Assembly: GCF_003061515.1 (NCBI RefSeq)
Contig: NZ_CP028924.1
Location: 1,426,001 to 1,490,000 of the forward strand
DNA: 64,000 nucleotides
DNA from: Colwellia sp. Arc7-D
GTDB lineage: Bacteria; Pseudomonadota; Gammaproteobacteria; Enterobacterales; Alteromonadaceae
Direction of reading: 5' to 3'
Shown one piece after another: positions 14,211 through 47,446 of this stretch. A program made the translations under genes and the position numbers. The number at the start of each line of letters is the position of its first letter. The stretch's first letter is position 1. A model generated the notes under the pieces. The model did not search any database. It was not told the origin of the DNA and saw nothing but the letters and a program-made list of their open reading frames with translations.

Positions 14211-15815
14211 ATGCAAGAAGCATTAAACTTAAGAGAAGTACTTTCAGTACTTTCGAAGGCATCTCCTTATGCTGTATCGACAGAGCGGAATAGCACTAGT
14301 CAGTCCTTACTTGATGAAATAAAATCTTATCTCTATATTCAAATGCCAATTGAGACAGCGGTAAATGAAACTATTTCCTCATTTGGTGCTAACGAGAAAA
14401 AAGTATTATTTTTATGTGGGAGCAGCGGAGACGGTAAGTCTGAGTTATTAACTAGAGCAAAAGTAAAATATGGTCAACGAGTTAATTTTCATTTAGACGC
14501 TACCCATAGTTTTGATCCACAAGAAAATGCAATTCAAACGTTAGATAATCTTTTTAATGAATTTGAAAATCAATCAAGACCGCTTGTTGTCGGTATTAAT
14601 ACGGGCATGTTAGGTAATTATGCGGAAGAAGGTAGTAACGAATTTTTCAGAAAGGTAATAAAAAACTACTTAGACAATGTTGAAGACACAGCAAATGTGA
14701 CATTTATTAACTTTGAAGACTATCCGAAGTTTGATATTGATGAAGTTGGTTACACATCAGAATTTGTTCAATTACTTTTAGAACGCCTAACTGCAGTTTC
14801 AGGGAATTTGATCAGACAAATTTATGATAAAGATAAATTAAATAATTTAGATGAAGAAAGTAAAAAACTCCATGCTAATTATGAGTTGTTATGCCTTCCT
14901 TTGGTTCAAAAGACTATTATTGAACTATTATTCAAAGCTCGTTTAATGCGAGATCAATTTTTAACTGCACGTTCGCTGTTAGACTTTATTCTTACATTAG
15001 TTGCGGGGCCTAATTATTTGTTTGATAACTTATTTGCTGGTGGTGATAACGAACTTGCGAACAAAATCATTGAATTTGATCCAGCACATTTGAGAACTAA
15101 AAAAATAGATCGTTTTATTTTATCTAATGATTTGTTACTTCCTGATGAAGACTTTCAAGAGTTTAAAAGCTATTTAACATCAATTGGAATTGTGAATCAG
15201 TTAAATAGTCAATCCTACTTGCGATTGTTTTACATTCTTAAAAATGGTGAGTTTGCTAATAATTATCACCAAAAATTTGTTAAAGACTTTAATGAATCAC
15301 TAATTGAACGTTATGTAGATATTTTCCAGTTACATCGTGATTTTGACAATAGCATAGAGCAAAAGAAGCGAATTAAAGAGTTTTATAACAATATATTACG
15401 TGCAGCGATTCGTAAATATAACAACCGTAATGCACCTAATTTAGATAAAAGTCATTATTTGATATCAGAGTTAAATGGTTTTCAGCTAGTAGCTAAGTTA
15501 GAAATCAAAGCGGATTTAAAAAATATTCTAAATTATCCAGCAAAATCATCTTCAAGTTTTACTGCTTGTTTAAAAGTTGAAGACCATAGTTTGACAATAC
15601 CAATAAACATCAACCTATTAAACTTGATGACAAAAATCGTTGATGGGTACAGACCAAATAAACATGATAAAAATACAGTCGTGCTTTTAGATGAATTGCT
15701 TGAGGATATTGCTCAAGTTGCAAATCATTCAAAAACCTTACATATCTTCAAAGAACACCATCAAATTACAGTCAAAAACGTTGATGACGAAGAATTTGAA
15801 GTGAGTGGAATGTAA
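14211..15815 (+). CDS. dptF: DNA phosphorothioation-dependent restriction protein DptF
   Basis: The 534-residue protein is a predicted P-loop NTPase with Walker A GSSGDGKS at about residues 70-77 and the family's opening layout (LREVLSVLSKASPYAVSTERNS). It is the first gene of the dptFGH restriction set; DptFGH (also called DndFGH) causes double-strand damage to DNA lacking phosphorothioate at the host's sites. A GGTGA ribosome site lies about eight bases before the ATG. It is followed by dptG with only a base or so between. The length and order agree with known dptF genes, and I rely on order plus the P-loop for the name. Confidence 0.9.
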   Translation: MQEALNLREVLSVLSKASPYAVSTERNSTSQSLLDEIKSYLYIQMPIETAVNETISSFGANEKKVLFLCGSSGDGKSELLTRAKVKYGQRVNFHLDATHSFDPQENAIQTLDNLFNEFENQSRPLVVGINTGMLGNYAEEGSNEFFRKVIKNYLDNVEDTANVTFINFEDYPKFDIDEVGYTSEFVQLLLERLTAVSGNLIRQIYDKDKLNNLDEESKKLHANYELLCLPLVQKTIIELLFKARLMRDQFLTARSLLDFILTLVAGPNYLFDNLFAGGDNELANKIIEFDPAHLRTKKIDRFILSNDLLLPDEDFQEFKSYLTSIGIVNQLNSQSYLRLFYILKNGEFANNYHQKFVKDFNESLIERYVDIFQLHRDFDNSIEQKKRIKEFYNNILRAAIRKYNNRNAPNLDKSHYLISELNGFQLVAKLEIKADLKNILNYPAKSSSSFTACLKVEDHSLTIPININLLNLMTKIVDGYRPNKHDKNTVVLLDELLEDIAQVANHSKTLHIFKEHHQITVKNVDDEEFEVSGM

Positions 15816-15816
15816 A

Positions 15817-17127
15817 ATGATAAAAATACCTTTAACCCCGCCAAGCAATAATACTTTAAGTACTTACTTACCATTAAGAACAAAAGATAAACATTATAAA
15901 TTTTGTTGGGAGACCGTGCTCGGATACTTTGTTCACGTTCTTTATAGAAAGTCACTAGCCACCAGCACTATCGATGAATTTAAAGTTCATTGCCAAAATC
16001 GATTTTCAAAAAAATTAGACGAGCCTGATTTTTGGTCTGTATTAGAAAAAATGTATTTTGAAAATAATCAACTTTTTAAAATTTCACCAGAGCTACTTAT
16101 TTTTAAAGCAGTAAAAGGTGAGATAGACACAAACAGTAAAAAATTAGGGGATATGTACTTAAGCTTACTGAACGGCTTTACCGTCTCTTGCTCGCCCAGC
16201 ACCCAATTAAACTTTTTAGAAAAAGAAATTAAAGAGGTGTTTGATGGCTTTTATGTCTCAGATAAACCTAAAAAGGAATTAAATAACGGAACACCATACC
16301 TTCCTTTTTTGACTCAGCATTTTCAGCAAGATCTACTGTTTTTAAATAAAAGACCGCATTACTTACTAAATAACTTTAATGCGGTTATTCGTTTATACGG
16401 CTTTTTGTATGTTTCTCAAATGGCGCTAAACATTAAAGATTGGAGTCAGGGAGAACCAAGGAGTAAGCCTTGCTTTTTTATTATTGATAACGAAAAAGCG
16501 AGTGATGAACGCTCACAAATTAAAAACTATGGTTACACCCAACTACATGACTATTTAGAGTATTTATTTCCATATTTAGTGATGAATGAAACGCTGCAAG
16601 ATAAAGGTGCCGTAGAGCCTATATGGAAATTATTTGAAAATTTAACTGAGAAAAATGTAACTGATTTAAATAAATTTGGTAGTGATTTCACTCAAGATCG
16701 TAATGACAGAAAGTGGTATAACTCAAACCAAGAATGGAATATTACAGAAGATAAAAAAGAACTTCTGACCCAACTGTTAGATGTGTCACATGCACAGTTC
16801 GAAAAGAAGAAAGGTCGACTTATTAAGTATAACGAAACAGTCGTTAAAGGACTACTAGGTAATGTTTGTGAACCCTTTATTCAGCGGCGTGGACGAGCAG
16901 GGCAAGTTCTTACTTTTAATCAAGACTATATTGTACTACTCACTAACTTAGCGATAGGTGAAAAAGAAAAGCTCCGATTACACGAACTTATAAAAGCGTT
17001 TGAATCCCGAGGTATATTTTTCGATAAACAAAGTCAGCAGAGTTTAATCGACTTTTATGAACGTATGGGCAATGTTGAAAGAATGAGTGATAGCGGGGAT
17101 GCAGTTTATGTTAAAAAAACAGTTTGA
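15817..17127 (+). CDS. dptG: DNA phosphorothioation-dependent restriction protein DptG
   Basis: The 436-residue protein has no motif that I can tie to catalysis. It is assigned by its position between dptF and dptH, its length and its N-terminal pattern (MIKIPLTPPSNNTLSTYLPLRTK). It is probably a structural or DNA-contacting subunit of the DptFGH restriction complex. A GTG at 15805 would add four residues and overlap the dptF stop; the ATG at 15817 follows the dptF TAA by one base and is the more likely start. The 3' end overlaps the dptH start, so translation is probably coupled. Confidence 0.88.
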   Translation: MIKIPLTPPSNNTLSTYLPLRTKDKHYKFCWETVLGYFVHVLYRKSLATSTIDEFKVHCQNRFSKKLDEPDFWSVLEKMYFENNQLFKISPELLIFKAVKGEIDTNSKKLGDMYLSLLNGFTVSCSPSTQLNFLEKEIKEVFDGFYVSDKPKKELNNGTPYLPFLTQHFQQDLLFLNKRPHYLLNNFNAVIRLYGFLYVSQMALNIKDWSQGEPRSKPCFFIIDNEKASDERSQIKNYGYTQLHDYLEYLFPYLVMNETLQDKGAVEPIWKLFENLTEKNVTDLNKFGSDFTQDRNDRKWYNSNQEWNITEDKKELLTQLLDVSHAQFEKKKGRLIKYNETVVKGLLGNVCEPFIQRRGRAGQVLTFNQDYIVLLTNLAIGEKEKLRLHELIKAFESRGIFFDKQSQQSLIDFYERMGNVERMSDSGDAVYVKKTV

Positions 17128-20100
17128 AGAATTTTTAGTTACCCACTTTAATACTTGGGCAGAAAATGAGCTACAAGCAGGATATCGTTATCAATTTAAA
17201 ACACCTGATGGTGATAAAGGCTTCAACCTATTTAAAGCCTTTATAAAGTTTACTAATGGCAGTATTCAAGTAAAAAATATTGAACTACAAACAATTCAAT
17301 ATGGCAAAACTAAGTTAATCCCTGTTTATCATGGTAAAACTGAAACTGGTTTTACTGAAAATTTCATATCACATTTGCGTGATGAAATTTCAGCACAACA
17401 AGGAGAACTTAAAGGCACATCGTTACTCATTATTCATAATTCGATGCTTGATACATTAATTAATTCAACTGAGGATATTGCTCAACTTGGTTTTGTTTGG
17501 CATCCAAAAAATATAAAACACCTATTGCATGCCGAGATAAACCAGGCAGATGATAAAGCTAAAATCTCTGAATGCTTACTTGATTATCACTTCGACGACA
17601 TTATTGATGATGGCGCTACAATGTTCGGCTTTGAAAAGCTGTACTATGCAATTGCTGACGGAGATTTACAATTTCACGAATTAGGCCTTTTAACGGATGA
17701 TCAGTTATCAAAGGAAGGCTGGAAAGGTGATCAGATAAGTGAACGAATTAAAGAAAATAAAGAATTAAGTGAAAAGCTTGATTTTATAACTCATCATTTC
17801 CCAAATGAATTAGAAGATAAGTTGGCGCGTTTAGACTTGAGTGAAAAATTTATAAAAGAGCATTTTCCTGATGGCGACGTTGAAAAATATAAAGAGCAAT
17901 TAGATTTAGGTGCGTGTTTTGCAGAGCAACAAAAAAACCGCACAAATTTACTTGAACTAGAAAGTGAAACTGCGCCTGATATTGAATTACTTAAAAAAGC
18001 TAAATCTGAAAAAGGAGCAGGTGTACGTGATCGGCACTTGATCTTATTATTAGAACCGGAACAGCATACTTTTGAATTAGAGTTATGTTTTTTAAATCAA
18101 AAGTTAAAAGATAGTTTTTGTAAAATTCAGCACAATCTGCATAAACCTGACGTACAAATAACGCTTAAAAATCCTGGTGGTGTCAGAAGCCGCGCGGTGT
18201 TAACAAGTAGTTTTGATGGTAGTGCCCGTTACTTCACTTTTCAGGTAAAAACAGACAAACCTAAAGAAACTCATCGCTTCAAAGTATTAGTTATTGGAAA
18301 AAATGATTTTTATATTGAGGGCTTTAAAAATACTTACTTAGTTGAACCAGCCAAACAATGGCTTACATTACAAACTGATGAACAATCTTTACAAATTAGC
18401 GACTTAAGTAATACGAGTATATTAAATTCCAACGAACAAGTTTTTGATGCTACTGAAATAGGTATTGTTGACTTTAAAAAACTCGCGAGTGAATCAGATG
18501 AAATATGCTTTGCCGTGCAAGGTTTAAATAGTTCGTTAACTTTTAATGTAGAAGGTGAAGTAGCTACAGATTCGCTTTTTTTACCCTTGATGCTAGATCA
18601 AGGGCGTTTTAATCATTTATTTAAAGATAGTTACTACGGACAATTCAATCGTAGTAAAAACAAAGTACTAATTGACGGAAAAGAAGTAGCCCCCAAAGGT
18701 AAGCGTTTAATGTTACTTCAAAATGAAGTGGAGTTAGTCGATTCTAGATTACTTGCGAAATTTAGCGCAGAAAACGACATAAACTTAGCTGATTTAGAAA
18801 TTAATTTTCCAGATTTATTCTTTGCTTATCGTAGCTTGTTTGATTATTTAGAGTTCCATAAAACACTATTAAGCATTGCTGGCTGGGGAGCAAAACTTAG
18901 AGGTTTAGTCGAACAAATCGTTATGGCTTATCAGGTAGCTATAGATGACATACCTTATCATGCACCTTTGTTAGATGAACATAAATTACTTGTAAATATC
19001 GGTTTTACAGAGTTTGATGAACAGGTTTATATCAGTCCTTTCCATCCTTTAGTTTTGGCGTACAACGTAAATTTAGCAAACAGCTTGAGTGAAGACAAAG
19101 AAGCAACAAGTAGCTTTAAGAATCTTCCTACAGTAACTATTCAACGTTTAACTGCACAAGGGTTATTACCATTTGTATATAACCCAGAATGTGATTTTTC
19201 CTATAATCATGCTGAAAAAGAGAATGTTTTTTGGTCTAAGTTAATTCCACAACAAGAAAGCAGTTACGATTATGTCCGCACGTTAGTTAAAGATAAAGTG
19301 GGCAAGTTTACCGCCGCGTTTAAGCATTTGTTTGTTACAGGCAGCAAAACTACATTGCTCATTAATTCTGTTAATAATCAGCAAAATAAAGAATTATTTC
19401 TAGGCTTAATTGATTTTATTAAACTCAAAAAAGATAAAGTAACAAACATACATGTAAATCTATATGATGAAACTGAATGTTATAACTGGTTTGATAAATT
19501 TGCTGATATGGCAAGTTATGACGATTTAAAAGAATTATGTGAACTCAATAAAGGTGCTGTACGTGAGCAAGCCGACACTATTATCGATCTGCTAAGAACG
19601 CGCTTAACCTACAGTAAGTATGAGCACGAAAAAGGTAATAAAGAGCAAGTTTATGCGCATATGTCATTTTTTAAAAATAATGAACGTGTACAAGCTGTAG
19701 ATGTTGATATATTAAAACAAAAAAGTGGTGTTGTTTGTCATGGTCTAATGCCAGGTGAGTCAGCATCAAATAAAAATGGTAGTTACTATACTTCTTTTGG
19801 CTTACAAGGTGTTGATGTTGAAAGCGCGCCTCACTTAAAACTCATCTCTACTTATAGTGGGTTAGTTAAACCAGCTAAACGCTCCCATGAAGAATACAGT
19901 GCATCCAAATCACAAGCATTAGTAGTAACAGAAAACTTTAAAACGCTACTTGAACGTTCTTATGAAAATTCAATTTGGACAACCATCATCGATCCAAAAG
20001 TAACGCTAGAATTTTTTGAAAACCAAAAAAACATGGTGCTAATTCATTACTCAGATAATTACACCAATTCAGTTAACTACGATGCGATTACTGTTACCAA

Positions 20101-22168
20101 ACAAACCGATTTGTACCATAAAGTATTGGAAAATGATGATGGCGGCATCATTGAAGAGTTTAATGCCTTTAATGGTGAGTGGTTATTAAATTTAGTTACT
20201 GCAAAAGATAATGAGCGTAAAGAAAAGCGAGGCATTATTGGCGCATATAAATACGTAAACTGTTTAGTTGCTAACTCTGACATAACGTGGGTTCCGCTTT
20301 CAATCGCTGAAATTGTGAGGGTTGCTGGAAATCTCGGTTTAAATATGAGCGATAGTGATTTATCACGTCATTCACAAGGTTTTAAAAAAGGTGCTATTTC
20401 AGACGATATATTGTTTGTAGGCTTTAAAGAGCAACAAATGATTTTGCTACCTGTTGAAGTTAAAACAGGTAAGCGTCAAACGCATAGTAAAGGCGTAGAA
20501 CAAGCTAAAGAGCTAAAGCGTTATTTTGAATCATTACTAGGGCAACAAACGTTAGCCGGTAATTTATATCGCGGATTATTTATGCGCCAAGTACTTATGC
20601 AAATAGATAAGTACAAACTTTATAAAGTATATGAAGATGGTTATTTCAATAATATTGAAAACAATAGCTCAGAATGGTTACAAGGTGATTACCAGTTAGC
20701 TGAGTTAGCAAACTATCCAGAAGGTATTCTATTTGTAAATGTAGAGGATAGCGATTTTACTAAAGCTTCCTTTTTACAAGTGCAAAATATTCTCAAAATT
20801 GAGTTACCCGCAGGTAATTTAGGTTATTGGGTGAAAACGCCGATGCAAACATTGGTAAACGATTTAACTCCAGCTAAATTACATCACATAGATGAGCAAT
20901 ATATTTTAAAAAATAATTGTTTAGTGAATACATTACAAAGTGCTGATGATGAATTAGAAGTGGCTGCAGAAGAAAATTCTCAGTCCATATCACCAAGTAG
21001 TATTGAAGCAAATAATGAAACTAGTAAAGAACAACCTGATACCACAGCACAAATGGAAGGTGTAACTGAACAGTCCGCTAATCATTCTGTACGTAAAAAA
21101 ATGCCAATTGAAGCATTACAGGCTATTTATCAGCAGATCATTGATTGTTATTACAGTCATAATATAACGGTAACTAAACCTAATGATGAAGAAGCCTTTG
21201 TTGAAGGCCCTGCCTCAATATTATTTAGAATTGAATTAAATCCAGGCACTGATCCCAAACGTGTATTTGAACGCTCTCAAGCACTCAAGTTAGCACTGAA
21301 ACTGGGCCAAGAACAAGAAGTTGGTTTTGGTATTGATAAAGGCTGTGTAACTATTGATGTACCTAAAAGCCAAGAACAACGTTACTTTGTAGACCAAAAT
21401 GATATCTGGCCGCATTGGCAACGACCTGATAACGCACTTGAAGTGCCGCTAGGTGAAGATCGATTTGGTGATGTTATCAAACTAAACTTTTCATCGTCAA
21501 ATTGCCCGCATTTATTAATTGGTGGCACAACAGGTAGTGGTAAATCTGAAGCCCTTAATACTATTTTATACGGAATGGTAGAGCATTATAGTGATGCAGA
21601 ATTAAAGTTAATGCTTATCGATCCTAAAGGTACAGAGCTTAATGACTTTGAACGCTATCCACATTTAATTGGCCGCATAGGTTTTGATGATGAAGATGCT
21701 TTAGTGCTATTAACGCAAGCCGTTGCTGAAATGCAGTCACGGTATGCACAGTTTAAGGCACAAGGTGTGCGCTCATTACCTGATTACAATGCTAAGGTAA
21801 GCAAAGAAGAACGCATTCCTTGGTGGGTACTTGTGCTTGACGAATATGCCGATTTAACCTCAGACAAAGACATGAAAAAGGATATTGAAGCCGAGCTTAA
21901 ACGCCTTGCGCAAAAAGCCCGTGCCGCAGGTATCCATTTAATTATTGCCACACAAAAGCCAAGTGGCGATGTAATCAGCACAAACTTACGTTCTAACTTA
22001 CCTGCTCAATTAGCACTACGCGTAAAAAATGGTACCGAAAGTCGAGTAATACTTGATGAACAAGGTGCCGAAGTACTTAATGGTAAAGGTGATGCTTATC
22101 TTAAATCAGAGGGTAAGTTGGTTAGGATTCAGTGTGCTAGGGTCTATGAAATAAGTTTAGGAAAATAG
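17108..22168 (+). CDS. dptH: DNA phosphorothioation-dependent restriction protein DptH, ATPase with nuclease-like core
   Basis: The 1,686-residue protein is the largest Dpt restriction subunit. The last 230 residues form an FtsK/HerA-type translocase ATPase with Walker A GGTTGSGKS at about 1472-1480 and Walker B VLVLDEYAD with Asp-Glu at about 1578-1579. About 350 residues earlier, SDDILFVGF then LLPVEVKTGK (Asp near 1099-1100, Glu 1117, Lys 1119) followed by GVEQAKEL looks like a PD-(D/E)XK nuclease core. An acidic low-complexity linker separates the two. The N-terminal 1,000 residues have no motif I recognise. The chosen ATG has GCGGGGA eight bases upstream; GTG at 17087 and ATG at 17099 are alternatives. 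The gene overlaps dptG. Confidence 0.92.
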   Translation: MLKKQFEEFLVTHFNTWAENELQAGYRYQFKTPDGDKGFNLFKAFIKFTNGSIQVKNIELQTIQYGKTKLIPVYHGKTETGFTENFISHLRDEISAQQGELKGTSLLIIHNSMLDTLINSTEDIAQLGFVWHPKNIKHLLHAEINQADDKAKISECLLDYHFDDIIDDGATMFGFEKLYYAIADGDLQFHELGLLTDDQLSKEGWKGDQISERIKENKELSEKLDFITHHFPNELEDKLARLDLSEKFIKEHFPDGDVEKYKEQLDLGACFAEQQKNRTNLLELESETAPDIELLKKAKSEKGAGVRDRHLILLLEPEQHTFELELCFLNQKLKDSFCKIQHNLHKPDVQITLKNPGGVRSRAVLTSSFDGSARYFTFQVKTDKPKETHRFKVLVIGKNDFYIEGFKNTYLVEPAKQWLTLQTDEQSLQISDLSNTSILNSNEQVFDATEIGIVDFKKLASESDEICFAVQGLNSSLTFNVEGEVATDSLFLPLMLDQGRFNHLFKDSYYGQFNRSKNKVLIDGKEVAPKGKRLMLLQNEVELVDSRLLAKFSAENDINLADLEINFPDLFFAYRSLFDYLEFHKTLLSIAGWGAKLRGLVEQIVMAYQVAIDDIPYHAPLLDEHKLLVNIGFTEFDEQVYISPFHPLVLAYNVNLANSLSEDKEATSSFKNLPTVTIQRLTAQGLLPFVYNPECDFSYNHAEKENVFWSKLIPQQESSYDYVRTLVKDKVGKFTAAFKHLFVTGSKTTLLINSVNNQQNKELFLGLIDFIKLKKDKVTNIHVNLYDETECYNWFDKFADMASYDDLKELCELNKGAVREQADTIIDLLRTRLTYSKYEHEKGNKEQVYAHMSFFKNNERVQAVDVDILKQKSGVVCHGLMPGESASNKNGSYYTSFGLQGVDVESAPHLKLISTYSGLVKPAKRSHEEYSASKSQALVVTENFKTLLERSYENSIWTTIIDPKVTLEFFENQKNMVLIHYSDNYTNSVNYDAITVTKQTDLYHKVLENDDGGIIEEFNAFNGEWLLNLVTAKDNERKEKRGIIGAYKYVNCLVANSDITWVPLSIAEIVRVAGNLGLNMSDSDLSRHSQGFKKGAISDDILFVGFKEQQMILLPVEVKTGKRQTHSKGVEQAKELKRYFESLLGQQTLAGNLYRGLFMRQVLMQIDKYKLYKVYEDGYFNNIENNSSEWLQGDYQLAELANYPEGILFVNVEDSDFTKASFLQVQNILKIELPAGNLGYWVKTPMQTLVNDLTPAKLHHIDEQYILKNNCLVNTLQSADDELEVAAEENSQSISPSSIEANNETSKEQPDTTAQMEGVTEQSANHSVRKKMPIEALQAIYQQIIDCYYSHNITVTKPNDEEAFVEGPASILFRIELNPGTDPKRVFERSQALKLALKLGQEQEVGFGIDKGCVTIDVPKSQEQRYFVDQNDIWPHWQRPDNALEVPLGEDRFGDVIKLNFSSSNCPHLLIGGTTGSGKSEALNTILYGMVEHYSDAELKLMLIDPKGTELNDFERYPHLIGRIGFDDEDALVLLTQAVAEMQSRYAQFKAQGVRSLPDYNAKVSKEERIPWWVLVLDEYADLTSDKDMKKDIEAELKRLAQKARAAGIHLIIATQKPSGDVISTNLRSNLPAQLALRVKNGTESRVILDEQGAEVLNGKGDAYLKSEGKLVRIQCARVYEISLGK

Positions 22169-22172: not shown

Positions 22173-22895
22173 ATGGAAGAAGAGATAGCAGAAAAAAATG
22201 CTTTAGGAATGAAAAAAAAGCTCGGTACTTTAATTGTTATTGTTTTAATTATAATAACTTTGGTAATAAGCTTATACATATATCAATTCAATAGTTATGC
22301 AATATCTGATAAACCTCAGGATTGGGGTCCATTTGGAGATTTTTTTGGTGGTGTGCTTAATCCTATATTGGCTTTTTGCTCATTTATAGCTTTACTTTAC
22401 ACAATCCATATTCAGCAAAATGAGTTAGCCTTAACAAGGATAGAACTAAAACGAAGTGTAGAAGCTCAGAAGCTGACGGCCACATTTACGAAAAAACAGA
22501 ATGAAGTAGCAAATAAACAACTCCATGATTTTACTATCCGAGAAAAGAAAAATGACGTATATCAGTTGATAAAATCGATTGATTCTAAGACTAAATATAT
22601 TTTAGATGTCAAGTGCCATAAAGTTATAGGTGGCCAAGGCAGTACATTAAAAGAAGCTATAAGATATATTACAAAAAATAAGGATACCTTATTGGCTACT
22701 GACTTTGCTGAAATAAGTAAACGAGTTGGTGTACAGTTGACAGAATTAGCAAAAGAAGTAGATTACCTTAAACTGCTTTTGAAAGACTTTGACGAGCTAG
22801 CCAAACATCAATATCTCAGTAAATATTACAATACCGTTTACGAGGATACTATCCAAGCTATTCAAATAATGAGAGTTTATCTAGATGAATCTTGA
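22173..22895 (+). CDS. Two-helix membrane protein resembling putative phage abortive infection proteins
   Basis: The 240-residue protein has two N-terminal membrane helices (about 17-37 and 57-79) around a short loop containing WGPFGDFFGGVLNPILAF, then a coiled-coil-prone cytoplasmic tail. This WGxFGDFxGGxLNP arrangement is what I recall from proteins annotated as putative phage abortive infection proteins, mostly in defence islands; no catalytic motif is visible. It starts four bases after dptH and overlaps the next gene by 11 bases, so it is part of the dpt transcription unit. A role as membrane effector or anchor of the defence system is inference. Confidence 0.65.
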   Translation: MEEEIAEKNALGMKKKLGTLIVIVLIIITLVISLYIYQFNSYAISDKPQDWGPFGDFFGGVLNPILAFCSFIALLYTIHIQQNELALTRIELKRSVEAQKLTATFTKKQNEVANKQLHDFTIREKKNDVYQLIKSIDSKTKYILDVKCHKVIGGQGSTLKEAIRYITKNKDTLLATDFAEISKRVGVQLTELAKEVDYLKLLLKDFDELAKHQYLSKYYNTVYEDTIQAIQIMRVYLDES

Positions 22896-23592
22896 TGTAA
22901 AAACCTTTTTTAATCGTTATGAAACAGATGGTTTTGACGATATTTCAGAATCCCCTGGAATATATTGCTGGTATGCCGAATTAAAAATTGAACCGGTTGA
23001 TTGGAAATATAATGATGGTTCAATAATTAGAGCTCTCAATGAAAGTCTACAAAAGCACCGAGCGAATGCTTTAACAACCAGTATTAAAAGCAATTTTGGA
23101 TTAAAGTGGGAGAAGACAATCCATGCTAATGAAAACATAAGGTGGGTAGATCAACTTGAAAGTATATTTGAAGAAGAGAATGAAGTGCACAAATTCTCGG
23201 CTCTAAATAATTTACTTGAACTAGATCAAAATAGAGAACTCATATCAACTGTTTTAAATGAAGTATCTCCATTATTTAATGTTCCTCTCTATATTGGTAA
23301 AGCTTACAATTTACAAAAAAGATTGAAAGAACATAAAAGAGAACTTGATTATTACGCAGACTCTACTCCTGACAACGCAGATCAATTATTTTCAAATGGG
23401 GAAAGCTTTGTAGAAAGAGCTATAGGAGCTGGTTTCGCTGTTGAAGAACTTGTTGTTTATACATTAGATCTTGTAAGTTTTGTTAAGGAAAGATCTATTT
23501 CAAATGTTTCTAATGATGACTTAAAGCAAGTAGCTTTGTTGGTCGAATATGTACTTAATAGAAGGCTACGACCTTCATTTGGAAAAATATAA
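22885..23592 (+). CDS. GIY-YIG nuclease domain protein
   Basis: The 235-residue protein carries split GIY-YIG hallmarks: SPGIYCWY at about residues 24-31 and, after an insertion of about 100 residues, VPLYIGKAYNLQKRLKEH with the conserved YIG and a basic arginine-type motif. The C-terminus EYVLNRRLRPSFGK resembles the family's closing Glu/Pro block. GIY-YIG enzymes cut DNA with a single metal ion. It overlaps both neighbours (11 bases upstream; TAATG downstream), so it is translationally coupled to the dpt operon and could be an additional nuclease of this restriction system. The large insertion between the GIY and YIG elements is unusual. Confidence 0.8.
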   Translation: MNLDVKTFFNRYETDGFDDISESPGIYCWYAELKIEPVDWKYNDGSIIRALNESLQKHRANALTTSIKSNFGLKWEKTIHANENIRWVDQLESIFEEENEVHKFSALNNLLELDQNRELISTVLNEVSPLFNVPLYIGKAYNLQKRLKEHKRELDYYADSTPDNADQLFSNGESFVERAIGAGFAVEELVVYTLDLVSFVKERSISNVSNDDLKQVALLVEYVLNRRLRPSFGKI

Positions 23593-25754
23593 TGAAAGAT
23601 ACTATTTTAGGGAATTTTGAGAAAACTAACACTAAATGGGAACATAATATTGTTGGAACTAAAGGGACTTTTTGGAGTTCAGCTGGAAAAATCGAATACA
23701 TAATGACCAGTGCTGGTTTGTCTATGGATGAACATGAGACTTCAGAGAAATTAACACGACAGTTATACCCGGTTAGAGAAATCTTAGACTTTGATAAAAT
23801 GGATTTTGATCAATTATTACAACGAGACTTAGATGATCACCGGGTAGCAACTGAACTAATCCCTTATTTATTAGAGAACTCTCATCGTGGTTTATCTTTT
23901 TTTCCACCGATTGTTGCTGCACTCTTGCCGTTTAGAAAAACTACACCTAAAGAAGCATTTGAAAAAGAAATCAGCACGGATATAGAAAGTGATGAAGATG
24001 GTTTATCTTGGAAAGGTACTATTAGCGGAAAGGCATATAAATACCAAGATCTTGTAACCCCGCAAGGCGGTGCTGCTCCATTTCCAATTTCTAAAATATC
24101 ATGGAATGAAGGAGGTGCAAGGTTAGTTGTTCTTGATGGGCAGCATAGAGCTATGGCTATGCTTGCAATAGCAAGAACTATTACAGGTAGCTGGCAAGAT
24201 AGCGGAGAAAAGTATAAATATTTTTATGAGTCTAGAATTAATAAAATAATAGATGAACTTGGTGGTGAAGCTTGGTTAGAAGAAAACATTTCGAAAATAG
24301 AATTCCCTGTTTGCATTATAAAGTTTAACAGTGAGAATGAATTAATTGATCAGCACGAAAGTGCTAGGAAGTTATTTGTCGATGTGAACCAAAACGCAAG
24401 AAGACCATCGGAGAGTAGGATTATATTACTTTCCGATAATGATTTACTAAATATTTTTACAAGAAAAACTCTTAACGAAATTAGAACTCCGCGATGTAGC
24501 TTTCCAATTAGTGCTGTAGAATATGACTACCCAGGCTCTGGTGCAGGAAAAGTACAATCGTCAAAGCCTATAAAATGGAGCTCAATCATAAATATTGAGA
24601 TGTTGCGTGCAGCAGTTTTGAGAACTGTTTTTGGACCATCCAAATTCATTGATAGTGTACGAAACAAGGTAAATGGGAAACCTAATTGGACGGATAAAAA
24701 TAAATATATGCGTGAAACACTTCGACTAAATGAGTGGTTTCCACGTTCACTTGAACATGAAGGCAGCGTTTTTGAGAGGAATAAAATAAAAAAAGATTAT
24801 TTTCCTAAAAGCAAAATTGATGAGTTCATCGAGCAGTATCAAAAATCCTGGGGTGAAAGTATTTTAATTGTACTAGAGAACTTTATTCCATTTAAAGCTC
24901 ATTCGGTTGCTTTAGAAAAGTTGTTAGCTGATTGGGGGACAATTGAGGTATATGCTTCACTTGCTAAAGAAGCTATTAGTCAAGGTCAAGGGATGTATTG
25001 GACTTTAAAAGATAGTTATCAGCATTGGAAGGATAATGGTGCAAAGGGTAGTGATGATACTTACAGAGCATGGGAAGCAATTAACTTCAAAAAGAAAGAT
25101 TTTGATAAGTTATTAGCAGAAGAATATTTGGGAAAAACTTCTGATAAAGCCATTAGTGATACGAAAAACTTCTATGAAATATTTAATACTTATGCATCAT
25201 TTGTAGGGTTATTTTTAGCTTTTAGTAGTTTAGCTAGAAAGCATGGGTATCAAGGTGAACAAATTCCTAAGTTTATTTCAGAAGTCATCAGCGTCATGAA
25301 TCAAGCTTTATTAGCGAAGAATAATAAATTAAGTCTGTTTATAAATCGAGATATAGAAGAGCCATTAAATCGAATCAAGGGAATGGATACGCCAGATTCG
25401 ACTTATTTTAGATATTTTTGGCTTGAATTAATCAATTATGGTATTGATAAAGATGCTGTTCTGATTCAAAAAGAAATCGTTAATGAACTAACTTCAGAAA
25501 CTAGGTTTTTATATTTTAATTACCTTAAAATGCAGTATATAAGCAGCCTCAAGAGTGAGAAATCAACTAAAGAATGGAATGATAATAAAGAAGACCTTGA
25601 AGAACTTGCTTTAAAGAGCTCGAAAGAACGAATTTCTCGCTCCTTAAAGAAGTGGTTTAATTTAAATAAACATGACTTTGATATTTGGTATCAAAAATAT
25701 ACTTCTCAGCAAGTAATTCAAGATGAGATTGACGAGAATAGTGAAGAAGTATAA
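23592..25754 (+). CDS. DGQHR domain protein, large DndB-like paralogue
   Basis: The 720-residue protein contains LVVLDGQHRAMAML (DGQHR at about residues 181-186), preceded by an FFPPIVAALLPF block and followed by VCIIKF and LFVDVNQNARRPS, the core pattern of the DndB/DGQHR family. It is twice the length of the true dndB at 29679-30770 and has an additional C-terminal region of about 400 residues, mostly helical. DGQHR proteins occur with phosphorothioation and other modification systems; DndB is a regulator or partner. Its ATG shares a base with the stop codon of the GIY-YIG gene. It converges on dndE with a 37-base overlap of coding ends. Confidence 0.82.
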   Translation: MKDTILGNFEKTNTKWEHNIVGTKGTFWSSAGKIEYIMTSAGLSMDEHETSEKLTRQLYPVREILDFDKMDFDQLLQRDLDDHRVATELIPYLLENSHRGLSFFPPIVAALLPFRKTTPKEAFEKEISTDIESDEDGLSWKGTISGKAYKYQDLVTPQGGAAPFPISKISWNEGGARLVVLDGQHRAMAMLAIARTITGSWQDSGEKYKYFYESRINKIIDELGGEAWLEENISKIEFPVCIIKFNSENELIDQHESARKLFVDVNQNARRPSESRIILLSDNDLLNIFTRKTLNEIRTPRCSFPISAVEYDYPGSGAGKVQSSKPIKWSSIINIEMLRAAVLRTVFGPSKFIDSVRNKVNGKPNWTDKNKYMRETLRLNEWFPRSLEHEGSVFERNKIKKDYFPKSKIDEFIEQYQKSWGESILIVLENFIPFKAHSVALEKLLADWGTIEVYASLAKEAISQGQGMYWTLKDSYQHWKDNGAKGSDDTYRAWEAINFKKKDFDKLLAEEYLGKTSDKAISDTKNFYEIFNTYASFVGLFLAFSSLARKHGYQGEQIPKFISEVISVMNQALLAKNNKLSLFINRDIEEPLNRIKGMDTPDSTYFRYFWLELINYGIDKDAVLIQKEIVNELTSETRFLYFNYLKMQYISSLKSEKSTKEWNDNKEDLEELALKSSKERISRSLKKWFNLNKHDFDIWYQKYTSQQVIQDEIDENSEEV

Positions 25755-26077
25755 AAACTAATCCCGCGATTCAAGTGTAACTTAAAAAAATCAGCAAAAG
25801 GCACACCAATTAGGTGTGCTTTTTGCTTTTGGTAAGTTTCACGTAATAGCGCCAAATACACCTCTGAATACTCGCCAGAAAATACTTTCCAGCTCATCTC
25901 AACATTGCTGTTTGAAGGGATATCTTCATAGGCAGGCGCGGTTTCTTCTGCTAATGACATACAAAGTGCCCACCGACATAAGACATTCCAGTTTTCGATA
26001 CCTGTTTTTCGTTTTAAAGTGCTTAGTTGTTGCTTTTGCTTTTCAGAAAGACGGATAGTCTCAATTGTAAGTTCCAT
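25718..26077 (-). CDS. dndE: DNA sulfur modification protein DndE
   Basis: The 119-residue protein matches DndE: an N-terminal MELTIETIRLSEKQKQQLSTLKRKTGI block, a NWNVLCRWALCMSLAEE segment and a C-terminal FADFFKLHLNRGISF motif. DndE forms a tetramer that binds nicked DNA in the DndCDE modification complex. Its ATG shares a base with the dndD stop codon. Its last 12 codons overlap the end of the convergent DGQHR gene, and a long terminator-like hairpin (25793-25827) lies within its coding sequence. Confidence 0.92.
   Translation of the reverse strand: MELTIETIRLSEKQKQQLSTLKRKTGIENWNVLCRWALCMSLAEETAPAYEDIPSNSNVEMSWKVFSGEYSEVYLALLRETYQKQKAHLIGVPFADFFKLHLNRGISFYTSSLFSSISS
25793..25827. terminator. 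Bidirectional terminator-like hairpin inside dndE
   Basis: A 15-position stem (25793-25807 with 25813-25827, five-base loop) pairs completely on the plus strand with one G-U pair. A T-rich stretch follows on the plus strand and a run of seven T on the minus strand. It would end transcription of the convergent dpt operon 40-70 bases past its stop, while lying within the dndE reading frame. Confidence 0.6.
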
Positions 26078-28035
26078 TAAAAGTACCCCTCAGTGAATGC
26101 TGAACTTTGTTGTTGTTCGTTATATTGAATGTGATATTCACGGCAAATAGACGGGCTTAATTGCTTATAATATTCCCCGTTTATTTCTTCATCGGTAGAT
26201 AACAAAATGACTTGCTGACTGGCATTAGGGAAGTAGTTATTAATCAACTTATTACGATGCTTACCATCTAAACGCCCTAGAGGTGTGTCAATAACCGTAG
26301 GAATTTCTTTACCTGAAGCTTCAGCTAATCCCCATAAAACAGCGATTGCCAATAATTGACGTTCACCAGCTGATAAGCGACTTGGCGACATTGCTTGATC
26401 GTTATTATCTTGTAACGTTAATTCAAAGCTAGTTGGGCAAATAATGATACCGTTAATTAGTTTTTCTTTACGTGATAGCGCATGAAATTTTTTGCTGATA
26501 TGGGTTTGTAAATACTCAACATTTTCAATGACTAACTTTTCAGCAAAGCTTTGCATGGTGTTTTTTAACTTACCAATATGATCAGCAACTTGTATGGCGC
26601 GTTTTTGTTCAAAAGTGTCTTTACTTTGTTGTGTCAGTAAATTTGAATAACGTTGGTTAAGCACATCTAGCTTGGCTGTTGATTGTTCAAGTAATGCTTG
26701 TTTCTGTTTTTTCAGTATTTGACTGTTTTTGAACATGACTTCATGTTCAGCAAGCTCGTTTAACAAATGTTGTACTGTTTCATAATCGGGCACGCTTTCT
26801 AGTTTTTTATCAAACAGTGCTTGAGCTTCTAATAATTCTTCTCGTTCTTGGCTCAGTTGTTTACGCTCAATTGCATCAGCGATTAACTTTTCATCTAAGC
26901 CATTAAAAATAGCTATGTCTGAGTTAATGTAACAATCAGTTCCTGCTATTTGCTGACGATCAGCAGCTAAGCTTTGCATTGTTTCTGTTACTTTACTAAA
27001 AGCTTTTTTATCAATACCTGCATGGGTAAGAGAAGCTTTAATAACTTCTTCATAGCCACTAATAGCCTCTTCAATGACTTTTGCTTGAGTCGCTTGTTTC
27101 TCAAGGTTAATTTGCTTTTTAGTTTGTGTTATTAAATTTGTAACCAAAGCAAGTGGACCACAACCTGCGTCTAACTTTACGCGGTTACTTTGATTAGCTT
27201 TTAGTTTTTGTTCAATAGCACCTAGCTCAAATTTAATAGAATCTCGCTCTTCAATTAAATGTGCGCCAGCGTTTCTCACTTTTTGACGAGATTTGTTAAT
27301 ATTTAAATTATATTCACTGGCTTTTTTATCAAGGCTAGCTATTTCAGTTCTTAGTTCGTGTACAACGGTGTTCTGTTCACTGATATCAGTTTCACAAAAT
27401 GTTACTTTTTTCATGACTGTATCGTCAATGTTGGCGCTTTTACGTTTGCGCTCGACATTACCTAAGTCAATTTGTAATTGGCTAAGTAGGTCTAAACCTA
27501 ATAAATTCTCTATGCCTGTGCGAATCAGTTCTGAACTTCTGTCAGGATTCGCTAAGTTTTCAATTTTTTCACCATCAAAGAAAAACAGATCTGATAATGA
27601 AAGAGGGATAAATTCATTTACAAATTCATCCCAATATTGGCTTAAATGACGATCTTCTTCACCATTACAAAATACTTTAACTTTATCGCGTGTTTCTACG
27701 GCAACTTTCCAATAACGTTGCACTTTAAATTCTTTTGTTTCAGTACCGGTAGAATGGCTGAAAGTAATTGAAAGCTCCACTTGCTCATCTTTCTTGGCAT
27801 ACCGATTCTTTGCATTAGCTAAATAAGTACTAAAAGACTCCATTCCGCGGTTTGAGCATTTAGCATGCTTGCCATATAAAACAAGCTGTAGGGCATCTAA
27901 AAATGTCGTTTTACCGCCACCGTTTAACCCACCAAATAAGATAACAGGTTTATCTTTAGTTACGGTTAGGTCTATTTCATGAAAGCCTTTGTAAATACCA
28001 AAATTTTCAATAGTTAATTGCTTAATAATCATCAC
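26077..28035 (-). CDS. dndD: DNA sulfur modification protein DndD, SMC/Rad50-like ATPase
   Basis: The 652-residue protein is an SMC-like ATPase: Walker A GLNGGGKT at residues 36-43, a long central coiled-coil region (about 200-500) and a C-terminal signature LSAGERQLLAIAVLWGLAEASG followed by Walker B and D-loop VIDTPLGRLDGKHR. DndD provides ATP hydrolysis, probably to handle DNA during sulfur incorporation. No obvious CxxC zinc hook is seen in the coil. It overlaps the dndC end by 14 bases and the dndE start by one base, so dndB-C-D-E is one tightly coupled operon. Confidence 0.95.
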   Translation of the reverse strand: MMIIKQLTIENFGIYKGFHEIDLTVTKDKPVILFGGLNGGGKTTFLDALQLVLYGKHAKCSNRGMESFSTYLANAKNRYAKKDEQVELSITFSHSTGTETKEFKVQRYWKVAVETRDKVKVFCNGEEDRHLSQYWDEFVNEFIPLSLSDLFFFDGEKIENLANPDRSSELIRTGIENLLGLDLLSQLQIDLGNVERKRKSANIDDTVMKKVTFCETDISEQNTVVHELRTEIASLDKKASEYNLNINKSRQKVRNAGAHLIEERDSIKFELGAIEQKLKANQSNRVKLDAGCGPLALVTNLITQTKKQINLEKQATQAKVIEEAISGYEEVIKASLTHAGIDKKAFSKVTETMQSLAADRQQIAGTDCYINSDIAIFNGLDEKLIADAIERKQLSQEREELLEAQALFDKKLESVPDYETVQHLLNELAEHEVMFKNSQILKKQKQALLEQSTAKLDVLNQRYSNLLTQQSKDTFEQKRAIQVADHIGKLKNTMQSFAEKLVIENVEYLQTHISKKFHALSRKEKLINGIIICPTSFELTLQDNNDQAMSPSRLSAGERQLLAIAVLWGLAEASGKEIPTVIDTPLGRLDGKHRNKLINNYFPNASQQVILLSTDEEINGEYYKQLSPSICREYHIQYNEQQQSSAFTEGYF

Positions 28036-29689
28036 TTAATTCCTCTGTTTCAATAAGTAATGAGCTATAACCTTCTTCTTTAATAGATTTTGTAACCATT
28101 ATTATTTTTTCTTCAATTGCCTGTTTCTCTTCATCTTCTAAATTTGGAGAGTTATTCAAATGTATTTGTAAACGATGACGCTCGCGTTCTAAAGCAAATT
28201 GTTTTGCTTCAAACAGGGTGTTAAATGCGCCGGTATCTAAACTTTTATTCAATTCATCGGATAAATTTGCGCGGCGTAATTGGTTTCTATGTTTGTTTGC
28301 AATTGACATCACTGCACGCATTTGTTGATAAAGTAGGCCGTCTTCATCGCCTTGTTCTTTGCAATGTGCTTTTAATTTATCAAGTACATCTAAATTTAAA
28401 ATAGGGTGGTGTGCACGTTTTTTACCTGGGTAGCTTTGCTTAAGTGCTTTTTCATAAATTCTAGGCACGTTGTCTTCAACTTCATGTTTTTCTTCAAGCC
28501 AAATACGACGGATTTCTTCTAAATCTTCTAATGTTAATAGCTCTAAGTTTTTTACTTCTTCTGGACCTAATTCCTGAACCGCAATTTGTGCTTCTAACAC
28601 CTTCGCTAATAAGTGCTCACGAAAAGATTGAATATAAGGGCCTGGTACTAAGTCTGCACCGTGCTTTGAAACATGTACGGTTAGGTTGCCTTTCATGCGT
28701 CTAAAGTCACGGTTGGCTTTATCTCGTGTTAGTTTCTCTATTTTTTTTGCTCTATTAGAATCGTTAACTTCAATTTCATTACGAAGTGAAACAAGTGGGT
28801 ACATCCACTCTTTTTCTTCATCGTTAGCTATCATGGCATTCATCGATTTATCTTCAGATACCATGGTACATACATAACAACCAAAGCGGCTATCACCACA
28901 ACTTTGTGTACTTTTGTCAACGACTAAAGGACATTCCCCACCTTCAGTGGCACCTTGATACATGCCCATTAAATCGTGATTTGGAAATCCCCAAGGGTTT
29001 TTAACACTATTAAGATAAACCCACACATCATCATTACTCCAATTTGCAATTGGCGTATAAACCCATACACGTTCAAGAGAGTCATTCTCGGTTAAGCCTT
29101 GGGCTTTACGAGTATTTGTTTCAGAGTTTTCAAATCTGTCCATGCTGGCTGCACGCGCTGTACTTTCAGCTTTTCTTGTACCAAGTACTAAAATAGCTTC
29201 GCCACTTTTGTTTGCCATATTTTGAATGAAAGTATTCGAAGGTGATATTTTTAATCGGTCGGTGCACCAACGGAATTTGTAACGTGGAGCAGGGTAACCT
29301 TTACCAATTAAGTTGACCCAAAATCTATCTTTAACTTCGGGTGTTAAGCGATGCGGCGTAATAGGTAAACCTTGTTCATCAGCTTGTTCTTTCATTTTAC
29401 TTAATGATTTACCAACCCACATTGCAACAATTGGGTTTTCTACAAGGGTGTCAGTGCTAATAACATGTACTTTCTTTTCACATTCACCTTCTTCTTTTAA
29501 CTCTTGTAATGCATACCAAATAAGTTGCAAAATTGCTGTTGAATCTTTACCGCCACTGTAACCAATTACCCATGGTATTTGGTCACTTTTATAAAGTGTT
29601 TTTACGTGATCGATTGATGCTCTTATTACTTCTTTTACCCCTTTTTGGGTAAATGCAGAGTTGTTCTGTGAAACTGGATCAGAACTCAT
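28022..29689 (-). CDS. dndC: DNA sulfur modification protein DndC, PAPS-reductase-like ATP pyrophosphatase
   Basis: The 555-residue protein has the PP-loop SGGKDS at residues 45-50, as in PAPS reductases and ATP pyrophosphatases, and cysteines suited to a [4Fe-4S] cluster (FRWCTDRLK, GGECPL, STQSCGDSRFGCYVCTMV). DndC activates the backbone with ATP and carries sulfur delivered by DndA. The C-terminal part is a helical extension. It overlaps dndB by 11 bases upstream and dndD by 14 downstream. Confidence 0.96.
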   Translation of the reverse strand: MSSDPVSQNNSAFTQKGVKEVIRASIDHVKTLYKSDQIPWVIGYSGGKDSTAILQLIWYALQELKEEGECEKKVHVISTDTLVENPIVAMWVGKSLSKMKEQADEQGLPITPHRLTPEVKDRFWVNLIGKGYPAPRYKFRWCTDRLKISPSNTFIQNMANKSGEAILVLGTRKAESTARAASMDRFENSETNTRKAQGLTENDSLERVWVYTPIANWSNDDVWVYLNSVKNPWGFPNHDLMGMYQGATEGGECPLVVDKSTQSCGDSRFGCYVCTMVSEDKSMNAMIANDEEKEWMYPLVSLRNEIEVNDSNRAKKIEKLTRDKANRDFRRMKGNLTVHVSKHGADLVPGPYIQSFREHLLAKVLEAQIAVQELGPEEVKNLELLTLEDLEEIRRIWLEEKHEVEDNVPRIYEKALKQSYPGKKRAHHPILNLDVLDKLKAHCKEQGDEDGLLYQQMRAVMSIANKHRNQLRRANLSDELNKSLDTGAFNTLFEAKQFALERERHRLQIHLNNSPNLEDEEKQAIEEKIIMVTKSIKEEGYSSLLIETEELSDDY

Positions 29690-30770
29690 TTTTTGCCTCT
29701 ATGAATGTTTTTTCAGTCAATACTTCTTTGTCTGTTAATTGTGAGCCAATTAACAGTTTGATTTTAATTGCAGTAAGTTGTGCTGCTTTAGGATTGTTAT
29801 GCATACTCCCATTGATGACACATCGCCCATCCCAATTTTTATTTTTTCTACTCCAATCAACTTTTTTTAACTCTTTTAGTGTTTTTTTCCAGTTTTTATC
29901 ATTTTCTAAAAGATAACGACCAACAATACCTAAAGCTTGAAAAGTCACAGAATGAGCGTGAATTGATTCATCGCGTAGTTCCCCACCGGATATTTCATCT
30001 TGGCAAACTAATAACCAAGCAGGAATGTTCTTTACCACTTGTTCCCAGTAGTTAGCAGCAATAGGAATTAGTTTTTTATGATTATCGTAGTTTATAGTTC
30101 CACATAATAACTTTGTGGCTCTATTCACAGCACTATGACTGATTAATTTCTTAGAGCGAGGGCCTAAGTTACTACTTTCCATATGCACTAACTTGGTTAG
30201 CCGAGGGCTATTAAGTATGATCGTCTTAGATACTATGGCATCAGGCTTATCATCATAGGTAATACTTAATGAACCATCTGTTTTTACCGAATAATAATTA
30301 AGATCTTTAAATATCCTCTGTCTTTCATCTAATGTTTTGTTTGCAAAAAATACGACTGATATTGTTTCATCTGCAAGAGATGGGTCTTCTTTTAATGCTT
30401 CTAGAATTGCGGCATTTCGATGTTGACCATCTGTTATATAAATTTCAGCGTCTTCATCAATTATTAGTGTACCAATACGCTGTTCATGTTTTGATTTTCC
30501 AATTGAAATAAATTCACAGCTACCGTCAATACAAGCTGTAATTGAAGAAAATACATATTTCTCTCTTTGTTCCAGGATATAGTTGGTTATATCTGGGATA
30601 CGAGCTTCATTAATTAGTCGTTGTGCGCGTTTATCTACTGAAAATTGTGATTGGTCGGTAGTAAATATTTTTGATAGTCTTTTTAAAGGGCACATTACTG
30701 TATAATACTCAGCGTTTGCTTGTATGCCTTTAATTGCAGGGAATGATGTGCCAGATATTATTGATTGCAT
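29679..30770 (-). CDS. dndB: DNA sulfur modification protein DndB (DGQHR family)
   Basis: The 363-residue protein has ITDGQHRNAAIL with DGQHR at about residues 113-117, after an FEFISIG-like strand region, and the usual DndB length and order. DndB is not essential for sulfur insertion but controls modification density and, in Salmonella, has been reported to repress dnd transcription by binding the promoter. Here it is first in the dndBCDE operon, divergent from dndA, next to a palindromic operator at 30816-30829. The start ATG fits the family N-terminus (GTSFPAIKGIQANAEYY). Confidence 0.92.
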   Translation of the reverse strand: MQSIISGTSFPAIKGIQANAEYYTVMCPLKRLSKIFTTDQSQFSVDKRAQRLINEARIPDITNYILEQREKYVFSSITACIDGSCEFISIGKSKHEQRIGTLIIDEDAEIYITDGQHRNAAILEALKEDPSLADETISVVFFANKTLDERQRIFKDLNYYSVKTDGSLSITYDDKPDAIVSKTIILNSPRLTKLVHMESSNLGPRSKKLISHSAVNRATKLLCGTINYDNHKKLIPIAANYWEQVVKNIPAWLLVCQDEISGGELRDESIHAHSVTFQALGIVGRYLLENDKNWKKTLKELKKVDWSRKNKNWDGRCVINGSMHNNPKAAQLTAIKIKLLIGSQLTDKEVLTEKTFIEAKNEF

Positions 30771-30897: not shown

Positions 30898-32025
30898 ATG
30901 ACAATCTATCTTGACTCTAATGCTACTACCCAAGTTCTCAAACCAGTCGCCGACTTAGTTTATAAGTTAATGCTTGAAGAGTATGGCAACTCGGGTAGTC
31001 GTACTCATGAATTTGGCGTTAAAGCCAAACAAGCCACTGAAAAAGCGAGAGCTCAGGTTGCTGATGTTGTTGAAGCGGACAAAACTGAAGTTATTTTTAC
31101 TAGTGGTGCAACAGAGAGTAATAATATTGCAATACTAGGACTTGAGAGCTTTGGAATTAAGGAAAATAGAAAACATATTATTACGACTAAGATTGAGCAC
31201 AAGGCTGTTTTGGAACCTTGTGCTCACTTAGAAGGTAAAGGTTTTGAAGTAACGTATTTGAATGTAGGTGTAAGTGGTTTAATTGATATTGAGGAATTGA
31301 AATCATCGTTACGTGAAGACACTCTATTGGTGTCAATAATGCACGTGAATAATGAAACAGGGAGTATTCAACCATTAAGTGAAATTTGTTCAGCTCTCGC
31401 TGATAGCGAAGCATATTTTCATGTTGATGCAGCCCAAAGCTTTGCAAAGCTGACGGGGGATCTTGTTAATAAACGGATAGATCTTATTAGTGCTAGCGGT
31501 CATAAGGTTTATGCGCCTAAAGGCGTTGGTGCACTTGTTATGCGTAAAAGGGGCTTTATTCGTCCGCCTCTGAAACCTATATTTTTTGGGGGTGGTCAAG
31601 AAAAGGGTCTTCGACCAGGAACTTTAGCTGTCCCTCTAATTGCTGGGTTTGGTTTAGCGTGTGAAATAGCTTTAAAAAACCAAGTGAAATGGCAACTACA
31701 TGCTCATAAATTAAAGACTGACTTAATTGATAAGCTTCAGCCTTTAGGGATAATAGAAAATGGTGAGAACAGCTCCCCGTTTGTTTTAAATTTTACTATT
31801 CCAGGCGTGAACTCTGAAGCTGCCATGGTTATGCTAAAAGGGATTGCTGCCGTTTCTAATGGCTCAGCATGTACATCGAATAGTTATAAACCATCGCATG
31901 TATTATCAGCGATGGGGTTTGATGAAGATAGAATAAATGGTGCAATAAGAATGTCTTGGAGTCATATGACTGAAGAGTTACCATTAGAAAAATTAGTATC
32001 GACTTTGGCACAATTAAAATTATGA
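30898..32025 (+). CDS. dndA: Cysteine desulfurase DndA (IscS-like)
   Basis: The 375-residue class V aminotransferase fold enzyme removes sulfur from cysteine using PLP and supplies it to DndC. It shows the TSGATESNN cofactor motif, HVDAAQS, the PLP lysine in SASGHKVYAPKG (about residue 203) and the persulfide cysteine in NGSACTSNS (about residue 325). In many hosts a housekeeping iscS replaces dndA; here a dedicated copy is present, divergent from dndB. Its stop overlaps the next small gene (ATGA). Confidence 0.95.
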   Translation: MTIYLDSNATTQVLKPVADLVYKLMLEEYGNSGSRTHEFGVKAKQATEKARAQVADVVEADKTEVIFTSGATESNNIAILGLESFGIKENRKHIITTKIEHKAVLEPCAHLEGKGFEVTYLNVGVSGLIDIEELKSSLREDTLLVSIMHVNNETGSIQPLSEICSALADSEAYFHVDAAQSFAKLTGDLVNKRIDLISASGHKVYAPKGVGALVMRKRGFIRPPLKPIFFGGGQEKGLRPGTLAVPLIAGFGLACEIALKNQVKWQLHAHKLKTDLIDKLQPLGIIENGENSSPFVLNFTIPGVNSEAAMVMLKGIAAVSNGSACTSNSYKPSHVLSAMGFDEDRINGAIRMSWSHMTEELPLEKLVSTLAQLKL

Positions 32026-34693: not shown

Positions 34694-34716
34694 CCTCATT
34701 TTAAAGGATCCATTTT

Positions 34717-36969: not shown

Positions 36970-36992
36970 GCTTGGCTGCTTCATTGTCGTCC

Positions 36993-47436: not shown

Positions 47437-47446
47437 ATCATACTTT
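47437..47446 (-). promoter_or_regulatory. AGTATGA element upstream of the aldehyde dehydrogenase gene
   Basis: Minus-strand AAAGTATGAT, the same ten bases as before pqqA, about 150 bases before the start codon. Confidence 0.4.

Follow-up and report, generated by a model that had tools for sequence, protein, structure and literature searches.

A GIY-YIG nuclease gene and a large DGQHR protein gene in the dnd/dpt locus of Colwellia sp. Arc7-D: candidate subunits of a phosphorothioation-gated restriction effector

Described partners of dnd and the Colwellia genes

Here we describe a gene pair, coding for a putative GIY-YIG nuclease and a large protein of the DGQHR family, which lies behind a membrane protein gene between the dptFGH and dndBCDE genes of the DNA phosphorothioation (PT) system of Colwellia sp. 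Arc7-D. The stretch analyzed, hereafter the window, comprises 64,000 nucleotides (contig NZ_CP028924.1, positions 1,426,001 to 1,490,000), and coordinates given without a locus number refer to it. Many dnd loci lack DndFGH: of 3416 taxa in which an endonuclease is linked to Dnd, only 806 have it (PMC10853773), although another count places it near 340 of 568 dndBCD genomes (PMC11662687). The pair is a direct candidate for the restriction arm of such loci. DndI is co-transcribed with dndFGH, acts as a PT-stimulated ATPase and nickase, and together with dndBCDE protects against phages (PMC11662687), and SspE couples PT recognition, GTP hydrolysis, and HNH cleavage (PMC13251355). A 2011 report described DGQHR proteins that accompany dnd as satellites (TIGR04172; PMC3226654), a 2024 study listed GIY-YIG (URI) genes at the margins of Dnd loci and interpreted them as backups (PMC10853773), and PbeABCD is a dnd partner other than DndFGH (PMC6459918); a 2025 survey of the ParB fold, in its accessible passages, mentions DndB-like proteins and not GIY-YIG (PMC12704722). 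An initial annotation of this DNA had taken known loci to hold dndBCDE and dptFGH only, which the published DndI (PMC11662687) and TIGR04172 (PMC3226654) contradict. No title or abstract opening in the literature searched (supplements and most subscription papers being outside its scope) describes a pair of a GIY-YIG and a large DGQHR protein; related additions to dnd loci are already known.

The likenesses to these systems are partial. DndI, too, is an extra gene of the dndFGH operon and partners dndBCDE with or without dndFGH, and it combines a ParB-superfamily NTPase domain with a nuclease, as the pair may do; it is, however, described as one protein with DUF262 and HNH (DUF1524) domains (PMC11662687), whereas here there are two proteins, and the DGQHR protein has no match to PF03235 (DUF262) or PF07510 (HNH, DUF1524) at E ≤ 1. 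SspE is the best, if modest, structural match of the N-terminal domain of the DGQHR protein and has an NTPase motif of seemingly similar type, but it carries its HNH nuclease in cis, works with SspABCD and not DndABCDE (PMC13251355), and gave no sequence match to the DGQHR protein. Proteins matching TIGR04172 (DNA phosphorothioation-associated DGQHR protein 1, DGQHR_dnd_1) likewise sit after dptH, before dndE, and behind a membrane gene; they differ in having about 350–430 residues and in that no window-type GIY-YIG gene was detected beside them, and the window protein has no match to the model at E ≤ 0.1. The URI nucleases are also encoded near dnd genes, but are described as acting alone, as backups, and the accessible passages show no pairing with a DGQHR protein (PMC10853773). 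As for PbeABCD, a PbeA protein occurs in L048 and a PbeA cluster in 14 of the loci that we fetched, whereas its helicase, ABC ATPase, and small proteins (PMC6459918) are absent from the window cassette.

The GIY-YIG/DGQHR pair and its association with dnd

We scanned the genome_contigs collection by pattern and by tblastn with a profile of the DGQHR family, and obtained 48 loci from actinobacteria, proteobacteria, cyanobacteria, one myxobacterial bin, and one poribacterial bin; some, such as L047 and L050 at 29% identity, are distant. A window-type GIY-YIG gene lies upstream of the DGQHR gene in 25 of the 48, and its frame ends at most 60 bases from the start of the DGQHR match in 24 of these 25, the other (L049) having a DGQHR gene in pieces. 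Upstream of the DGQHR gene, 14 loci carry instead a GHKL ATPase together with a GIY-YIG of a second kind, three a GHKL gene only, and six neither, one of these six being truncated where its contig ends. At least one dnd gene lies within the fetched stretch in 40 of the 48 loci, and dndC (TIGR03183) was found in 44 of 47 carrier genomes (the L021 genome left out), those of L007, L046, and L047 missing it. Among 295 genomes from the phylum of a Streptomyces carrier, a sample that leaves out the centre, one had dndC, a baseline from one phylum and unmatched for genome size, whereas the carriers span several phyla. By contrast, dptG (TIGR03236) was detected in none of the 47 carriers, where a diverged DptG of other phyla could escape the model; the same model found it in 19 of 394 genomes of the window's order. 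The pair goes with dnd rather than with dpt, and the initial view of the added genes as a general dpt add-on does not hold; the window genome is therefore unusual, among the genomes searched, in having both the pair and dpt. The expectation of a three-gene block was borne out for its two-gene core, which is not mostly away from dnd, and failed for the membrane gene, which a profile search detected in none of the 48 wider loci. In the reverse direction, only 2 of 296 Actinomycetota genomes had dndC (centre included), so that this test rests on too few; the non-centre genome has no DGQHR or GIY-YIG gene in positions 2500–24602 of its 24.6-kb contig.

Two arrangements among the actinobacterial loci were also observed. 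In L005 (7524-12151), L013 (7514-12130), L019 (7509-12184), and others, the DGQHR gene is preceded by a GHKL ATPase, the N-terminal part of which is weakly MzaB-like, and by a different small GIY-YIG, often after dndE and a 200-residue protein. In a Streptomyces (L010 6076-9953), the GHKL/second GIY-YIG pair lies on one strand and a direct GIY-YIG/DGQHR pair on the other.

Co-variation of the two proteins was analyzed in the window and 17 loci having all four genes (16 of the 25 GIY-YIG loci, and L059), with eight loci lacking dndC or dndD in the stretch at cut-off, and the broken L049, left out. The pairwise distances of GIY-YIG and DGQHR correlated at r = 0.961 and those of DndC and DndD at 0.952, compared with 0.768–0.793 across the two pairs (every p = 0.0005; 1999 permutations); the partial correlation of GIY-YIG and DGQHR given DndC was 0.90. 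By these sequence distances, the two proteins co-vary as members of one complex would, partly independently of dnd. This bears on an alternative in which the GIY-YIG protein would be an indiscriminate abortive-infection effector, restrained by the DGQHR and membrane proteins and freed once Dnd or Dpt is disabled by a phage. Stand-alone URI (GIY-YIG) nucleases at Dnd locus edges have been proposed to act in this way (Rakesh et al. 2024, PMC10853773), and the membrane protein has an N-terminal stretch in common with a putative abortive-infection protein; the nuclease here is not stand-alone, however, its co-variation with the DGQHR protein being as tight as that between DndC and DndD, and the membrane gene was not detected in the 48 wider loci. 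We therefore regard this alternative as unlikely.

Predicted features of the two proteins and a proposed function

The GIY-YIG protein (22885..23592, +; 235 residues) has a predicted GIY-YIG fold, matched via the VIA second look at structure. About 108 residues separate its two motif tyrosines, and among 31 sequences Y27, Y136, and E221 are invariant and R146 nearly so, positions which we take to be the catalytic ones; H150 stands four residues after R146, presumably as in R.Eco29kI. The GIY-YIG domains of R.Eco29kI and UvrC share the fold and the conserved motif positions, but the window protein differs from them in a long insertion between the two motif strands and in its NTPase-like partner.

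The DGQHR protein (23592..25754, +; 720 residues) belongs to a family in which the DGQHR motif is invariant, and consists of an N-terminal domain (approximately residues 27–269) followed by a mostly helical part. Its structure matches, too, come from the VIA second look, Foldseek by itself giving no significant match; the N-terminal domain is predicted to be most like SspE/ParB, with SspE structures as the top three rows, and the likeness is modest. At E ≤ 0.1 the protein has no match to TIGR03233, the DndB equivalog, and against PF14072 it scored 25.2 bits alone, below the cut-off of 29.1, and 30.8 bits in the genome search, where the frame included its neighbours. What stands of the "DndB-like reader" of the initial annotation is therefore a distant similarity to PF14072; the DndB equivalog is not matched, and the best structural match of the N-terminal domain is SspE, a modest one. 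The same similarity would suit a regulator, that is, a large DndB paralogue tuning the PT level or dnd transcription, with the GIY-YIG protein repairing or trimming DNA during modification. A true dndB is already present in the locus, however, and the best structural neighbour, SspE, is an effector, and we find this reading improbable.

On balance, we favour the view that the GIY-YIG and DGQHR proteins are the nuclease and sensor/NTPase subunits of a PT-gated restriction effector working with DndABCDE, and the pair is probably an undescribed cutter that distinguishes self from foreign DNA. The assignment of sensor-NTPase to the 720-residue protein and of nuclease to the GIY-YIG protein follows, by analogy, the precedents of DndI and SspE. 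A physical complex, PT sensing, nucleotide hydrolysis, cleavage, and a role for the membrane protein are all inferred: the DGQHR subunit would sense whether DNA carries PT and hydrolyze a nucleotide via its SspE-like domain, and in response the GIY-YIG subunit would introduce nicks or breaks while leaving PT-marked self DNA intact. In DndI and SspE one protein holds both sensor and HNH nuclease, and the pair would then be their counterpart in split form; the membrane protein, added in front, might position the effector where DNA enters. Since the pair is conserved and tied to dnd, the "second effector arm on the phosphorothioation system" put forward in the initial annotation is the best reading, amended in that its core is two genes and its usual partner dnd. 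A wider proposal, which we are as ready to doubt as to accept, is that of a split PT-sensing restriction system in which an SspE-like DGQHR sensor would work with interchangeable GIY-YIG nucleases (in some phyla a direct partner; in many actinobacteria another GIY-YIG together with a GHKL ATPase); it would be the usual restriction arm of dnd without DptFGH and would here be joined to DptFGH, with a membrane anchor, in an effector-swapping slot. If the pair is a PT-gated effector, it would separate PT sensing from the cutting with which SspE and DndI combine it in one chain, and would show that a single operon can carry two restriction arms.

Layout of the locus and the dptH-dndE interval

The identities of the dnd and dpt genes were taken from NCBIfam and PADLOC, and DptF, DptG, DptH, and DndB to DndE all score over the NCBIfam cut-offs. 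On the forward strand, dptF, coding for a restriction subunit (14211..15815; TIGR03238, 658.9 bits), dptG (15805..17127; TIGR03236, 468 bits), and dptH (17087..22168; TIGR03237, 1916 bits), the product of which ends in an FtsK-type ATPase domain (PF01580 at residues 1443–1626), are followed by the membrane protein gene (22173..22895) and the pair. The spacing of 4 bases after dptH and the subsequent overlaps of 11 and 1 bases noted earlier recur in our list of open reading frames (ORFs), and the three genes, touching and on one strand, join the dptFGH operon; they are "fused" to it in the sense of touching, with no gene fusion. By eye, a Shine-Dalgarno-like stretch precedes the ATG of all three, and a TAATG junction lies ahead of the DGQHR gene. 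The latter overlaps dndE (25718..26077, −; TIGR03184, 121.8 bits) tail-to-tail by 37 bases, so that the added genes are the exact point at which the dpt and dndBCDE operons converge. The rest of that operon, on the reverse strand, comprises dndD (26077..28035; TIGR03185, 734.1 bits), dndC (28022..29689; TIGR03183, 686.8 bits), and dndB (29679..30770; TIGR03233, 489.9 bits); beyond it lies an ORF for a dndA-like cysteine desulfurase (30898..32025, +), relatives of which adjoin dndBCDE in many fetched loci. The pair occupies an accessory slot flanked by dptH and dndE and is therefore probably expressed together with DptFGH in the window genome.

The membrane protein (240 residues) has relatives in Vibrio; its N-terminal part, which carries a GDFFGGVLNPI motif, is hydrophobic by eye, and its tail is soluble. 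It has no Pfam match over cut-off and none to putAbiC (PF16872) at E ≤ 1, and it aligns well with a "putative phage abortive infection protein" at residues 21–109 only, where 41 of 89 columns are identical. Its supposed abortive-infection look thus holds for an N-terminal stretch shared with one such protein and does not extend to PF16872.

The slot was compared in 21 other dpt loci, namely 17 from the window's order (of 18, one having dptG on contig ends), three from the plasmid collection, and E. coli H240; in 18 of the 21, an operon with dndD faces dptH across the interval. In nine, the interval holds a membrane-protein gene and then a DGQHR_dnd_1-like gene; our guess is that DptFGH-linked versions may act at the membrane. 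The DGQHR proteins of L056 and L057 score 270–276 bits against TIGR04172, short of the required 450, and pass the general DGQHR cut-off; for the other seven the call rests on similarity to the L057 protein (L082 at 45 bits only). The DGQHR1-like gene of E. coli H240 (L102 19612-20769) is split in two, and its neighbour was assigned as a membrane-protein gene by eye. Four loci have PIN-like genes as well (PF18476 in L056; comparable proteins in L083, L084, and L097). Other intervals vary widely. L081 (8078-10209, −), from the same order, has a GHKL ATPase and a GIY-YIG without a DGQHR gene, showing that the GHKL/GIY-YIG pair also exists alone, and L085 has a GHKL and a methyltransferase-like gene, with a DndB-family gene and a weakly GIY-YIG-like gene on the opposite strand. 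A distant relative of the 720-residue protein (687–688 residues) follows dptH in L088 (9768-13026) and L097 (5792-9100, −), paired with a protein of 413–415 residues that has no Pfam match over cut-off. The intervals of L095, L089, L094, and L087 hold, respectively, a DndI-like GmrSD_N-GmrSD_C protein; HNH, weakly ParB-like, and Mrr genes; a weakly GmrSD-like gene; and AIPR, and L090 has an ABC ATPase beside a 711-residue protein resembling PbeA by eye. L086, L092, and L058 gave no recognized cassette among the ORFs scanned, which were not all of those present. A ParB-superfamily-like protein is found in 15 of the 21 intervals, the weak cases of L089 and L094 counted. The three genes of the window are one version of a recurrent arrangement.

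Such variety would fit a passenger, namely a defence cassette without relation to dnd or dpt that happened to insert in a hotspot within their locus. The presence of dndC in nearly all carriers and the detection of dptG in none, however, links the pair with dnd in particular, and we consider a passenger very improbable.

Two further relationships were considered and rejected, the L056 membrane protein having no relation to the GIY-YIG profile and the L057 DGQHR protein no meaningful alignment with the window DGQHR profile. The dptF and dptG of L097 and the dptG of L056 are in pieces, with intact copies elsewhere. In the dnd loci L036 (6808-9114, −) and L090 (14311-17148), large sigma-70 region 4 proteins (weakly MzaA-like) are encoded next to ABC-ATPase genes and to genes that belong to the PbeA cluster or resemble PbeA, and L048 (12310-14301) falls in the same cluster by BLAST.

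Among close relatives, the GIY-YIG protein was found in its own genome only (196 relatives), as was the DGQHR protein among 369 genomes of the class at E 1e-20; at 1e-6 in 394 genomes of the order, the latter matched its own genome and, partially, one other (6.4e-9). With matches nearly confined to the own genome, the three-gene block is untraceable by genome in the closest group. In the protein collection, the Vibrio coralliilyticus proteins P0005, P0126, and P0136 each have a listed longest contig of 673,844 bases, which suggests, without showing it, that they are neighbours. The DGQHR protein had no match in 50,697 phage records, and a DNA search of E. coli genomes gave none either. Among 72,556 plasmid records, the membrane protein matched 31 (each over at most 80% of its length), the DGQHR protein seven, and the GIY-YIG protein one; both genes stand side by side only in a Nonomuraea gerenzanensis record (11.85 Mb, hardly a plasmid), the other six DGQHR matches having 28–33% identity over 39–64% of the protein and no GIY-YIG match. 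Viral contigs gave two DGQHR loci (L054 and L055) and no GIY-YIG, and the coordinates of the second GIY-YIG, GHKL, and DGQHR genes in L054 equal those of L013.

Elsewhere in the window, three tandem tRNA-Asn genes (2160-2503, −), its sole tRNAs, do not adjoin the dnd/dpt locus. By eye, we take 33776-38570 to be a PQQ biosynthesis-like cluster, 45768-49360 to hold an aldehyde dehydrogenase and a PQQ-dependent alcohol dehydrogenase-like gene, and 55057-58384 (−) to hold a mercuric-reductase-like gene, small membrane proteins, and a MerR-type regulator.

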